Assembly: GCA_001595945.1 (NCBI GenBank)
Contig: LSSI01000020.1
Coordinates: forward strand, 68,971 to 107,500
DNA: 38,530 nt
From: Thermoplasmatales archaeon SM1-50
GTDB taxonomy: Archaea; Thermoplasmatota; E2; DHVEG-1
Direction: 5' to 3'
Under the pieces are notes generated by a model. The model made no database searches, was not told the origin of the DNA, and worked only from the letters and a program-made list of their open reading frames with translations. Positions 15,359 through 30,649 of the stretch are shown in pieces. How positions within the stretch are numbered: position 1 is the stretch's first letter; every line of letters begins with the position of its first letter. The position numbers were made by a program, and so were the translations under genes.

Positions 15359-15390
15359 TATTTTTCCGATTTTTTTGTTTTTTTGCGAAA

Positions 15391-15435
15391 TGTTTATAAA
15401 AAGCCTTTATATACTTCAAGGAGGGAAATCTTCTT
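15391..15435 (+). promoter_or_regulatory. Promoter and Shine-Dalgarno of the TBP operon
   Basis: Two TATA-like boxes occur in tandem: tgtttataaaaa (15391-15402) and ctttatatac (15405-15414). A strong Shine-Dalgarno aaggaggg (15418-15425) precedes the ATG at 15436 by ten bases. If the upstream box is used, the leader is about 15 bases. As the product is the TATA-binding protein, the doubled box suggests autoregulation; this is inference. Confidence 0.6.
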
Positions 15436-15996
15436 ATGGTCGAGGTCGAGGTGGAAAACATTGTGGTGTCTTTTTCAGTGTCGTCCTGCTTGGATTTACC
15501 TATACTTGCAAAGATTCTCCCTGATGCACATTATAATCCGGATGAAGTTCCCGTAATTATATTGCAGTTTCCGCATCCTCGGTCCATGGCAACCCTTTCT
15601 TCTACAGGACAGGTGACAGTGACTGGACCAAGAAGCATGGAGGAGGTTGATGATGTCATAAGAATGGTCTTCGATCGTCTTAACGTAGCTGGTGTCGAGG
15701 TAAATGAAACACCAGAGGTAACAATTCAGAATGTTACCACATCTACTGACCTGCATCAGAAGATAAAGTTACGACATATTGCTAGATCCCTGCAGATAGA
15801 GGGGTATTCCCCAAGAATTTTCCCTGGGTTGATCTATAATAGAGATGACCCAAACACTGTTATACTACTGTTTGATTCGGGGAAGATTGTCTGCAACGGG
15901 CTACGACTGGAAGACGTCACTGTTGCTCTTGAGAAAATGTTGGAGAAATTGTTATCGTTTGGTATGAAAATGGAGGAAGATGTATGCCAGAAGTAA
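15436..15996 (+). CDS. Divergent TBP paralogue with a degenerate N-terminal repeat
   Basis: The 186-residue protein aligns without gaps to the first repeat of the downstream TBP. It keeps VENIV near the start, IQNV at the second repeat and the saddle pattern. In repeat 1 both kinking phenylalanines are replaced: V38 where TBP has F38 in QFPG, and S55 where TBP has F55 in LLFRSG. The FPGLVYR segment reads VPVIILQF. Repeat 2 keeps F129 (IFPGLIY) and F146 (LLFDSGK), although VCTGAR becomes VCNGLR. It overlaps the canonical TBP gene by 13 bases, so both proteins are made together. It may modulate promoter choice, heterodimerise or bind DNA with one half only. The frame is intact, so it is not a pseudogene. 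Confidence 0.87.
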   Translation: MVEVEVENIVVSFSVSSCLDLPILAKILPDAHYNPDEVPVIILQFPHPRSMATLSSTGQVTVTGPRSMEEVDDVIRMVFDRLNVAGVEVNETPEVTIQNVTTSTDLHQKIKLRHIARSLQIEGYSPRIFPGLIYNRDDPNTVILLFDSGKIVCNGLRLEDVTVALEKMLEKLLSFGMKMEEDVCQK

Positions 15997-16535
15997 TCGT
16001 AGAAAATATTGTAGCGTCAACGTCATTTTCCGATAAGTTGGATTTGGACGTTATCGCACAATCATTGGAAGAAGCTGAATATGAGCCTGAGCAGTTTCCT
16101 GGGCTTGTGTATCGTTTAAGCAGTCCGAAAACCGCAACGCTGTTGTTCAGGAGCGGGAAAGCGAATTGTACAGGTGCAAAGAACATTGAGGATGTTCGAA
16201 CAACAATTAACATCATTGCGGAGAAACTAAAGAAATTGGGTGTTGAGGTCTATAAAGAACCTGAGATAGTCATTCAGAACATCGTCGCGATCTCAGATCT
16301 TGGTGGGGAGCTGAACCTAAACGAGGTGGCAATGGCACTTGGCCTTGAGAATGTAGAGTATGAGCCTGAGCAGTTTCCTGGGCTTGTATATCGAATCAAA
16401 GAGCCACGTGTCGCGATGTTACTGTTCGGTTCAGGTAAAATTGTCTGCACTGGGGCACGGAAGATAACTGATGTCTCCCTTGCCGTAGAGAAACTCTCTC
16501 AAGAACTTTCGTCACTTGGTCTGATCCATCATTAA
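15984..16535 (+). CDS. tbp: TATA-box-binding protein
   Basis: The 183-residue protein has two symmetrical TBP repeats. Repeat 1 has VENIVAS, EPEQFPGLVYRL, TATLLFRSGKANCTGAK; repeat 2 has IQNIVAI, EPEQFPGLVYRI, VAMLLFGSGKIVCTGAR. All four DNA-intercalating phenylalanines are present (F38, F55, F131, F148). It recruits TFB and RNA polymerase to TATA boxes. The ATG lies inside the end of the divergent paralogue and has ggaggaa ten bases upstream. The usual acidic C-terminal tail of some archaeal TBPs is absent; the protein ends LGLIHH. A T-rich terminator follows. Confidence 0.97.
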   Translation: MPEVIVENIVASTSFSDKLDLDVIAQSLEEAEYEPEQFPGLVYRLSSPKTATLLFRSGKANCTGAKNIEDVRTTINIIAEKLKKLGVEVYKEPEIVIQNIVAISDLGGELNLNEVAMALGLENVEYEPEQFPGLVYRIKEPRVAMLLFGSGKIVCTGARKITDVSLAVEKLSQELSSLGLIHH

Positions 16536-19090: not shown

Positions 19091-19281
19091 GTTTCTACTA
19101 TCAATGTATAGTTAAATCTTGGTTATTTCTTCTTTATGAATTCCCACAACATAACTGTTAAAATTAATTTTGATTAGATATCCGATAGAATAGCCTCATG
19201 AAAACTCTTTCTTTATCCTTATTTTTATTATATAGTAAATTATTTAAATTAAAAAACAGATATTTTTTTCCTAGGGAGATT

Positions 19282-20697
19282 ATGAACTATAATCTGATCA
19301 ATACGTCATTCCTTGTCATTATCCTATGTATGATTGGTGCTCCATCGTGGTCAGCTTCTACCATAGACATTCCTCCTATACAGACTACATTTCTTCAATA
19401 TAACGAACAAGAAAGGAATCTATATGATTTACTTATCATAGCACCAACTGAGTTCCACTGGGAGCTTCTTTCACTTGTACGTCACAAAAATAGCATTGGT
19501 ATCCAAACAAGGCTTGTTGATCTTTACGAGGTGTACGACCAGATGTTCTGGCAGGGTCGTGATGACGCTGAGAAAGTGAAGTACTTCATTAAAGCAGCAG
19601 TGGAGAATTGGGGTGTGCACTACGTTCTGCTTGTTGGTGGTCGGAAAAACCAGGGGCTAGTTGAGAAATGGTGGGTCCCTGTACGATATAGTTATCTTAA
19701 CCGCCCTTATGAAGCGTACCCAGAGTCTAAGTTTCTTTCAGATCTTTATTTTGCAGATATCTATGATGAGAATGGTTCTTTCTCAAGCTGGGATGATAAT
19801 TATAATGGCATCTTTGGTGAATGGCCGCAAAATCAGGGAGCAGTGGATTACCCTAACCTTATTCCTGATGTAAGCTTGGGTCGACTTCCTTGCCTAAATA
19901 AATATGAGCTACGTATCGTCATACGGAAAATTATACGATATGAGACGAGAGGCTGTGCCGAGTCCTGGTTTAAAAACATGGTCGTCGTTGCAGGCGATAC
20001 CTACCCTGGACGAACCCCGTACTATGATGGTGAGGTCTACACCCAACAAGGTCTTGACCTGATGACCGGATTTCGTCCAATAAAATTATGGGCCTCTGAT
20101 GGCAGCTTTAAGAATTGGATCGATGTCGTTTTTATGGTCAATAAAGGATGTGGTTTTCTCTGGTGGTCTGGTCATGGCAACCCAAAGGATTGGGCAACCC
20201 ACCCCCCTGATGATAATACGACATGGATTTATGGGCTACGTCTACGTAACCTTCCTTTTTTACACAACCGCTATAAACTGCCTATATGCTTAACTGGCAG
20301 CGGCTGTTTTAACAACATGTTTAACGTGAGCCTGCGCAATAAATGGTGGGTGTACGGTTTGCCTACCCCGTACTGCATCAGCTGGGCGCTTATGGTTCAG
20401 CGGGATGGTGGCACTATCGCAACCATTGGTCCGACTGCATTTAGTTACGAATCCCCTGATATCACCCTTGGATATGGGGGGATCGAATTGCTGGATAGAC
20501 AGTTCTTCTCTGAGTACGGACAAAACCATACAGATGTCCTCGGTGACTCCTGGCGGGATGCTATCACGTCTGTACTTAGGCAATGTCCTATTGATTGGTC
20601 TGATGAAACGATTAATGGGTCTGCGTTAGTGGTGAAAAATATCCAACAGTGGGTGTTGTTTGGTGATCCGAGCCTGAAAATCGGTGGGTATAGATAA
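19282..20697 (+). CDS. Secreted C25 (gingipain-like) cysteine peptidase
   Basis: The 471-residue protein starts with a signal peptide (MNYNLINTSFLVIILCMIGA, cleavage near SWSAS). The catalytic His is in LWWSGHGNPKDW and the Cys 44 residues later in CLTGSGCFNNMF, the C25/caspase-fold dyad of gingipains. Other family segments include YVLLVGG, PDVSLGRLPC and WVLFGDPSLKIGG at the end. The ATG at 19282 has tagggagatt before it; an upstream ATG at 19198 would bury the signal peptide. It likely degrades extracellular protein. No C-terminal adhesion domains are attached and nothing suggests inactivation, despite two decayed genes upstream. Confidence 0.9.
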   Translation: MNYNLINTSFLVIILCMIGAPSWSASTIDIPPIQTTFLQYNEQERNLYDLLIIAPTEFHWELLSLVRHKNSIGIQTRLVDLYEVYDQMFWQGRDDAEKVKYFIKAAVENWGVHYVLLVGGRKNQGLVEKWWVPVRYSYLNRPYEAYPESKFLSDLYFADIYDENGSFSSWDDNYNGIFGEWPQNQGAVDYPNLIPDVSLGRLPCLNKYELRIVIRKIIRYETRGCAESWFKNMVVVAGDTYPGRTPYYDGEVYTQQGLDLMTGFRPIKLWASDGSFKNWIDVVFMVNKGCGFLWWSGHGNPKDWATHPPDDNTTWIYGLRLRNLPFLHNRYKLPICLTGSGCFNNMFNVSLRNKWWVYGLPTPYCISWALMVQRDGGTIATIGPTAFSYESPDITLGYGGIELLDRQFFSEYGQNHTDVLGDSWRDAITSVLRQCPIDWSDETINGSALVVKNIQQWVLFGDPSLKIGGYR

Positions 20698-29101: not shown

Positions 29102-30649
29102 ATGCAAAAGAATCGAGTAAATAAAAAAATAATATTCACATGTTTCATCTTAATGTTGTTGTTGTGCTCAGGTTGTATTACAAATCCAAACATCAATAAT
29201 GATATAAAAAATGATACTCTTATTGTTGGGGTATTATCGGCAGACACTATTTATCCATTGAATATCACTAATAGTAATTTTTGGACACTTATTCCAAATA
29301 TTTTCGATGGACTCGTTGAATTTGATGAAAAGTTCCACATCATCCCTGCTCTCGCAGTTTCATGGAACAATCCTGATAGTTATACATGGAGGTTTTATCT
29401 CCGTCAGGGTGTGAAATTCCATAATGGAGATGATTTTATTGCTGAGGATGTTCGTTTCTCTATCGATACTTTTCATAGTAGTTTTGATACGATTATTAGA
29501 GAAATTAATATTGTAGATAATTATACAATTGAATTCAAAACGTTCGAACCCAATCCCAGTCTTCTTGAACGTTTGGCACATGTTGGTATTATCGTTTGCA
29601 AAAACATCACAGAACAACCAGAGGGACAGAAGATGATAGGAACTGGATCATATAAGTTGGCTGACTATGAAATTAATATGTATACAACATTGGAACGTTT
29701 TGATAAATACTGGAGAGAGAAACCTGAAATAAAAACTGCAATGTTTAGGGTAATTAAAGATGATGAAGAACGATTACACGCACTTCTCTCTGGAAACATT
29801 GACATTGCAGAATATAATATTGATAACAAGATTGATCAAATCATGCAAGAAGAGAATATCACATTGGTAAAATACCCACCATTGTCCACCTATATCATTG
29901 GATTTGATATGAGGAAAAATCGTAGTTATGCGTTTCCTGACGACATGAATCCTACTGCTGACCTTCGTGTAAGAAAAGCGATTTATCAAGCAATCGATAT
30001 CACACCATTGATACATGGTCCCTTTAAAGATTTAGCACAACCTGCATCTCAATTTCTCACTCCTTATATCTTCGGATATAATCCAGAGATAGAAAGATTG
30101 CCATATAATGTGACCGCTTCCAAACAACTCTTAGCAGACACAGGCTATAAGGACGGATTTGATATTGTTATGGATTGTATTATAGAAGGATATGAATATA
30201 ACGAAGAAAATTGCCATCTCATTAGTCAACAACTTTCAAAGGTCGGTATTCATGTAACGATCAATAATCTCTCCACAACTGAGTTTAATAGAAAGGTCGT
30301 ACGTGAGAGAAATACCTCGATGTATTTGGTTGGATGGGGAACAATCTCTGGGGATGGCGGATTTGCATATGATCTTTTTATTCGATCCGTTGGGGAGAAT
30401 GTTGGTGGTTTAAACAGTGGATATTATTCCAACGCAGAGGTAGATCGATTAGGGATAAAAGCTTCTAAGGAGATGGATTCTGAAAAACGATTGCAGTTAC
30501 TACAGCAGGGATTTAAAATTTCGTTAGTAGATGATGTCATGGTTGTTCCGTTGTTTTCTCAAGAATTGTTCACCTTGACTGCAAAAAATATTAAATTAAT
30601 ACCACGAGCTGATTTAAGGATTATTGTAAAAGACATCAGATTTATCTAA
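29102..30649 (+). CDS. Lipoprotein ABC substrate-binding protein, family 5
   Basis: The protein is about 515 residues from ATG 29102 (ATGs at 29054 and 29090 are alternatives). It has a lipoprotein signal, MQKNRVNKKIIFTCFILMLL then LCSGC, with the lipobox Cys. The rest is a family 5 solute-binding protein: NIFDGLVEFDEKF, TWRFYLRQGVKFHNGDDFIA, EDVRFSID, GTGSYKL, LRVRKAIYQAID and the C-terminal SKEMDSEKRLQLLQQGFKI. It should bind oligopeptides or a metal chelate outside the membrane. No permease or ATPase genes are nearby, so it is an orphan or uses components encoded elsewhere. Confidence 0.9.
   Translation: MQKNRVNKKIIFTCFILMLLLCSGCITNPNINNDIKNDTLIVGVLSADTIYPLNITNSNFWTLIPNIFDGLVEFDEKFHIIPALAVSWNNPDSYTWRFYLRQGVKFHNGDDFIAEDVRFSIDTFHSSFDTIIREINIVDNYTIEFKTFEPNPSLLERLAHVGIIVCKNITEQPEGQKMIGTGSYKLADYEINMYTTLERFDKYWREKPEIKTAMFRVIKDDEERLHALLSGNIDIAEYNIDNKIDQIMQEENITLVKYPPLSTYIIGFDMRKNRSYAFPDDMNPTADLRVRKAIYQAIDITPLIHGPFKDLAQPASQFLTPYIFGYNPEIERLPYNVTASKQLLADTGYKDGFDIVMDCIIEGYEYNEENCHLISQQLSKVGIHVTINNLSTTEFNRKVVRERNTSMYLVGWGTISGDGGFAYDLFIRSVGENVGGLNSGYYSNAEVDRLGIKASKEMDSEKRLQLLQQGFKISLVDDVMVVPLFSQELFTLTAKNIKLIPRADLRIIVKDIRFI

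Follow-up and report, generated by a model that had tools for sequence, protein, structure and literature searches.

A tandem TBP paralog with a disabled first repeat upstream of the canonical TBP gene in a Thermoplasmatales archaeon

We analysed a stretch of 38,530 nucleotides from the Thermoplasmatales archaeon SM1-50 (contig LSSI01000020.1, positions 68,971 to 107,500; hereafter the window) that carries two overlapping genes for the TATA-binding protein (TBP). The downstream gene encodes a canonical TBP (TBPb). The upstream gene encodes a paralog (TBPa) that, judged by its residues, is blind in half of its DNA face and has lost the usual handle for TFB, because the contacts of repeat 1 and the Glu pair of the stirrup are changed. 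Both lobes of TBPa carry the mark of purifying selection, and we tentatively propose that it acts as an accessory TBP, tuning TBPb without itself initiating transcription.

The two genes and their expression signals

A preliminary description of this DNA had reported two intact TBP genes that overlap by 13 bases; overlap and reading-frame coordinates were borne out, and the start of TBPb overlaps TBPa by the same 13 bases in all nine genomes of the genus. The locus has the following features:

15386..15414, plus strand: predicted promoter block CGAAAT-G-TTTATAAAAA-GCC-TTTATATAC, recognised by conservation, with a BRE-like CGAAAT
15393-15402, plus strand: TATA-like element 1, part of the promoter block
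15406-15414, plus strand: TATA-like element 2, part of the promoter block, 13 bases from TATA-like element 1
15420..15425, plus strand: Shine-Dalgarno-like GGAGGG of TBPa, from sequence reading, with GGAG conserved in the genus
15436..15996, plus strand: TBPa, a TBP paralog with disabled repeat 1 (186 aa)
15972..15976, plus strand: Shine-Dalgarno-like GGAGG of TBPb, within the TBPa frame, conserved in 7 of 8 genomes
15984..16535, plus strand: TBPb, a canonical TBP with all four Phe and an EPEQ stirrup in both repeats (183 aa)

Each protein contains two repeats of the Pfam TBP family (PF00352) above the curated cut-off, scoring 119.8 bits for TBPa and 197.6 bits for TBPb; the two are 39% identical overall and align without gaps over repeat 1. 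An AlphaFold2 model of TBPa made with 15 sequences reached a pLDDT of 90, and its nearest solved folds are archaeal TBPs, with a TM-score of 0.86 to 1mp9. By model and TM-score, TBPa has the saddle of two alpha-beta repeats that characterizes the family, and both of its lobes should fold. In the genome of the window, which is 94% complete, we found no TBP other than these two and saw one TFB gene. Elsewhere in the window, positions 19198-20697 encode a Peptidase C25 (gingipain-like) protein.

The promoter block is nearly invariant in the nine genomes of the genus, though these differ by about one change per synonymous site. Across the order, 41 of 42 upstream regions match it at at least 17 of 23 positions, as compared with 0.25% of shuffled regions, and a pattern search returned a single match in the genome of the window. 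All eight genomes examined from other orders of the class have a similar double element in front of their TBP gene. The double-TATA element found before tbp in this order and in other orders (TTTATAAA, 13 bases, TTTATATA) possibly serves autoregulation; no report of tandem TBP genes or of a double TATA element at an archaeal tbp gene turned up in the open-licence papers searched. On the simplest reading, TBPa would occupy the first-cistron place of the ancestral TBP, and the pair would use the ancestral tbp promoter. Translational coupling of the two genes is likely, because the predicted ribosome site of TBPb lies inside TBPa and all members of the genus share the 13-base overlap, and from the shared promoter block and this coupling we infer that TBPa and TBPb are co-expressed.

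DNA face, TFB-docking stirrup and selection

The residues that distinguish TBPa from TBPb map to the following codons, the stirrup by stirrup comparison and the others by alignment:

15547..15549, plus strand: V38 (in TBPb, kinking Phe of repeat 1)
15598..15600, plus strand: S55 (in TBPb, second kinking Phe of repeat 1)
15808..15816, plus strand: S125 to R127, repeat-2 stirrup (in canonical TBP, the TFB-docking Glu-x-Glu)
15820..15822, plus strand: F129, retained kinking Phe of repeat 2
15871..15873, plus strand: F146, retained kinking Phe of repeat 2

In the alignment, V38 and S55 of TBPa pair with F38 and F55 of TBPb, and F129 and F146 with F131 and F148, which agrees with the earlier observation that repeat 1 lacks both kinking phenylalanines and repeat 2 keeps both; TBPa does not have the two kinking Phe per repeat of a canonical TATA-bending TBP. 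Loss of both residues is not fixed within the genus, where position 38 is non-Phe in nine of nine proteins and position 55 in five. Among the upstream paralogs as a whole, Phe is missing from 42 of 86 alignment cells in repeat 1 as opposed to 3 of 85 in repeat 2, and TBPb-type proteins have lost it in 0 of 362. The full pattern, with both repeat-1 Phe gone and both repeat-2 Phe kept, occurs in eight upstream paralogs including TBPa of the window. On the tree, the minimum number of Phe changes is 4 for F38, 7 for F55, 2 for F131 and 0 for F148, the last being the sole Phe universally retained among upstream paralogs; those of G009, G010 (L053, L060) and G046 (L098) lack the first Phe of repeat 2 as well (G, S or L instead).

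The loss extends to other canonical DNA-contact positions, which we take from established knowledge of TBP-DNA structures and give in yeast numbering by homology. Within the genus, the F99, R105, L114 and K120 equivalents in repeat 1 of TBPa are changed in all nine proteins and the F116 equivalent in five, while those of N69 and T124 are retained throughout. Repeat 2 retains the N159, F190, L205, F207, S209 and K211 equivalents (9/9); the R196 equivalent is Lys or Arg in eight of nine and Asn in the protein of the window, and two new residues are fixed (V161 to T and T215 to N equivalents, 9/9). The median net charge of repeat 1 is -6.5 in TBPa of the genus versus -3 in TBPb-type proteins.

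The repeat-2 stirrup of TBPa reads S125-P-R127 instead of the TFB-recruiting Glu-x-Glu. The pair is replaced in all nine proteins of the genus and its second residue is Lys or Arg in eight, which weakens, for this genus, the earlier suggestion that TBPa is a partner for TFB. In human TBP the equivalent residues are E284 and E286; the Glu-x-Glu stirrup touches Arg and Thr of TFB/TFIIB, and the E284R and E286R mutations reduce transcription (PMC7221094). Efficient bending by Methanocaldococcus TBP requires both Phe pairs, and in Sulfolobus, where TFB drives bending jointly with TBP, mutating the ionic TBP-TFB contact abolishes bending (PMC4041446). Outside the genus of the window, the Glu pair and the repeat-1 Phe are often retained in upstream paralogs, so the mechanism may vary within the order; four of five orthologs in genus g11 have a D-x-E stirrup.

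Over the nine genomes of the genus, omega is 0.239 for TBPa and 0.012 for TBPb, and within TBPa it is 0.225 for repeat 1 and 0.233 for repeat 2. An omega of 1 was rejected for the whole gene (2dlnL of 241) and for the two repeats (141 and 107), and pairwise substitution counts are concordant with these estimates. Because the rejection holds for each repeat, codon comparison indicates that purifying selection acts on both lobes of TBPa, with a constraint about twenty-fold weaker than on TBPb. In the per-repeat dN/dS comparison that the preliminary description had called for, both repeats are thus constrained and random decay is absent, and relatives lack the phenylalanines too. The same description had read the overlap as a sign that TBPa is selected and made together with TBPb. 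Selection stands, on the strength of dN/dS, but the overlap alone proves neither selection nor co-expression; as proof of co-selection it was rejected, the gap between the genes being mostly a few to about 50 bases outside the genus.

Distribution and origin

We gathered relatives by scanning genome contigs with an alignment; a scan with the single TBPa sequence gave no match. They are Thermoplasmata MAGs, several of which bear freshwater or sediment names. TBPa orthologs precede TBPb in all nine genomes of the genus, and tandem upstream paralogs occur in 43 genomes from 22 genera of the order. Where contigs reach, the gene order enolase, phosphoglycerate dehydrogenase-like (PGDH), translin-family, TBPa, TBPb is conserved both within the genus and in many further genera of the order, and part of the enolase-to-TBPb neighbourhood is present in a genome of the most distant family (L106). 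Most genomes of the class outside this order gave one TBP match, with no tandem pair among the matches listed.

In a tree that excludes the four Phe columns and haloarchaeal TbpC, TBPb-type proteins group together (100/99), and so do the upstream paralogs (100/97) apart from two that belong to the most distant family, so that TBPa of the window falls among the upstream tandem paralogs of its own order. A single origin of all 43 upstream paralogs is favoured by this tree but weakly supported (60/15). A set of 18 upstream paralogs from six genera, grouped with good support (100/99), share the loss of F38. Two relatives, G031 and G007, have TBPb almost immediately behind the promoter and show a clean absence of TBPa; on this gene content TBPa is dispensable and TBPb apparently is not. 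A third relative encodes a TBPa of 161 aa (L012, G037:C11), its gene shortened in frame by 75 bases close to the C-terminal helix and the TBPb overlap retained; the shortening may be real or an assembly error.

Relatives, and not the genome of the window, also carry extra canonical TBP genes beside a TFB gene of their own, mostly on the same strand. One such pair lies at 1577-2128 and 2197-3132 of L175 (G039:C93), and others were seen in G043:C160, G044:C73, G036:C15, G003:C54, G021:C33 and at several loci of G017. Many of these loci share a non-TATA upstream block like GAGAACTATTTTAATAGxTATACTTGTT...GTGATACTATATG, and they are possibly TBP-TFB cassettes with their own promoter class.

Possible roles of TBPa and comparison with known systems

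A tuning rather than an initiating role is suggested because one DNA face and the TFB handle are lost while the other DNA face is kept, and because both lobes are selected, one TFB gene was seen, TBPa is co-encoded with TBPb and it is dispensable. TBPa would then have arisen long ago by tandem duplication of the housekeeping TBP gene and have been retained by selection in an accessory role. Both proteins would come from one mRNA that starts at the conserved double-TATA promoter, with translation of TBPb coupled through the overlap. TBPa would contact promoter DNA by repeat 2 only and would be incapable of full bending and of normal TFB recruitment. It would thereby lower or shape TBPb-dependent initiation, either through occupancy of TATA half-sites or through association with TBPb, and it may feed back on its own promoter. 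Against this proposal, a half-face TBP without help from TFB may be too weak a DNA binder to compete, and the conserved new residues of repeat 2 could point to a changed readout of DNA instead of simple occupancy. We regard as improbable the bolder version in which TBPa is a cis-encoded TBP attenuator, with factor and half-saddle antagonist made from one mRNA and both acting on the ancient double-TATA tbp promoter, a built-in governor of global initiation that would predate the radiation of the order.

TBPa might instead start transcription at a subset of promoters, repeat 2 reading a changed half-site while TFB or another factor holds repeat 1. The strongly retained DNA face of repeat 2 with its fixed T and N, the retained N69 and T124 equivalents of repeat 1, the D-x-E stirrup in g11 and the joint bending of DNA by TFB and TBP in Sulfolobus (PMC4041446) are all consistent with such an initiator, which we nevertheless consider doubtful: the Glu pair for TFB is lost in the genus and mostly basic at its second position, a single TFB was seen, repeat 1 is without kink and basic contacts, and two relatives do without the protein.

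It is also unlikely that repeat 1 has become a protein-binding surface by which TBPa forms heterodimers with TBPb or keeps it off DNA in the manner of Mot1/NC2, with DNA contact secondary. Despite its lost DNA face, repeat 1 matches repeat 2 in constraint, and it is more acidic in the genus; TBPa is encoded one-to-one with TBPb, and TBP dimers are known (1vok); yet repeat 2 retains DNA-kinking strands for which a pure protein partner would have no need. Finally, a decaying duplicate without function is very hard to credit: TBPa has the faster amino-acid evolution relative to synonymous change (about 20-fold over TBPb), two losses and the shortening in G037, but also an omega of 0.24 in both lobes, frames intact in nine of nine genus members and in 43 genomes, and residues invariant across two genera. 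A pseudogene was ruled out by this omega, the 2dlnL of 241 and the unbroken frames.

TBP is usually viewed as a nearly unchangeable, all-or-none bender of DNA. The 43 tandem paralogs make up a natural separation-of-function series in which loss of the N-lobe kink is recurrent and loss of the C-lobe kink very rare; one genus has given up TFB docking as well, with the protein still under selection. The paralogs are experimentally tractable proteins with which the abilities of half a TBP saddle can be probed.

The one-sided loss, which the preliminary description had thought undescribed, has a precedent in haloarchaeal TbpC (2014), which lost the N-terminal Phe pair, kept the C-terminal pair and is easily deleted (PMC4230888); the claim of novelty for the loss as such was rejected on this ground. 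Like TbpC of Halobacterium pNRC100 and its relatives, TBPa is an archaeal paralog altered in the N lobe. The pNRC100 protein that we compared (L173) is likely TbpC, recognised by its Phe pattern and not by a record name; it has Tyr/Tyr in the N lobe and an intact EPEQ TFB stirrup, in contrast to the Val/Ser and basic stirrup of TBPa. TBPa further differs from TbpC in its tandem arrangement with a canonical TBP, its conserved chromosomal locus and its measurable purifying selection. The kind of protein is thus already known, and TBPa goes further in the TFB handle and differs in setting; the paired, order-wide tandem form, with the TFB patch lost in this genus, appears undescribed in the open-licence papers searched. 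To the question raised by TbpC, dead gene or specialised factor, the answer for this lineage favours a selected function. The same Halobacterium plasmid also carries a single-lobe TBP-like reading frame of about 100 aa (L174, pNRC100 30062-30319).

More distant parallels exist. Metazoan TBPL1 (TLF/TRF2) is likewise a TBP paralog of about 40% identity, altered at the N-lobe Phe N.L5.1 and without TATA binding (PMC3142196, PMC7221094), but it retains binding of TFIIB and TFIIA, whereas TBPa lacks the TFB Glu pair in the genus, and its origin is separate. The TBP mimic ORF24 of KSHV shares with TBPa a TBP fold without the TFIIB-docking Glu residues (PMC12529657); unlike TBPa it is viral, keeps and needs all four Phe and binds RNA polymerase itself. 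Archaeal TFS4 is a basal-factor paralog turned inhibitor of initiation (PMC5715097), and although it derives from a transcript cleavage factor and acts on RNA polymerase rather than on TBP, it provides a precedent for the way in which TBPa may act.
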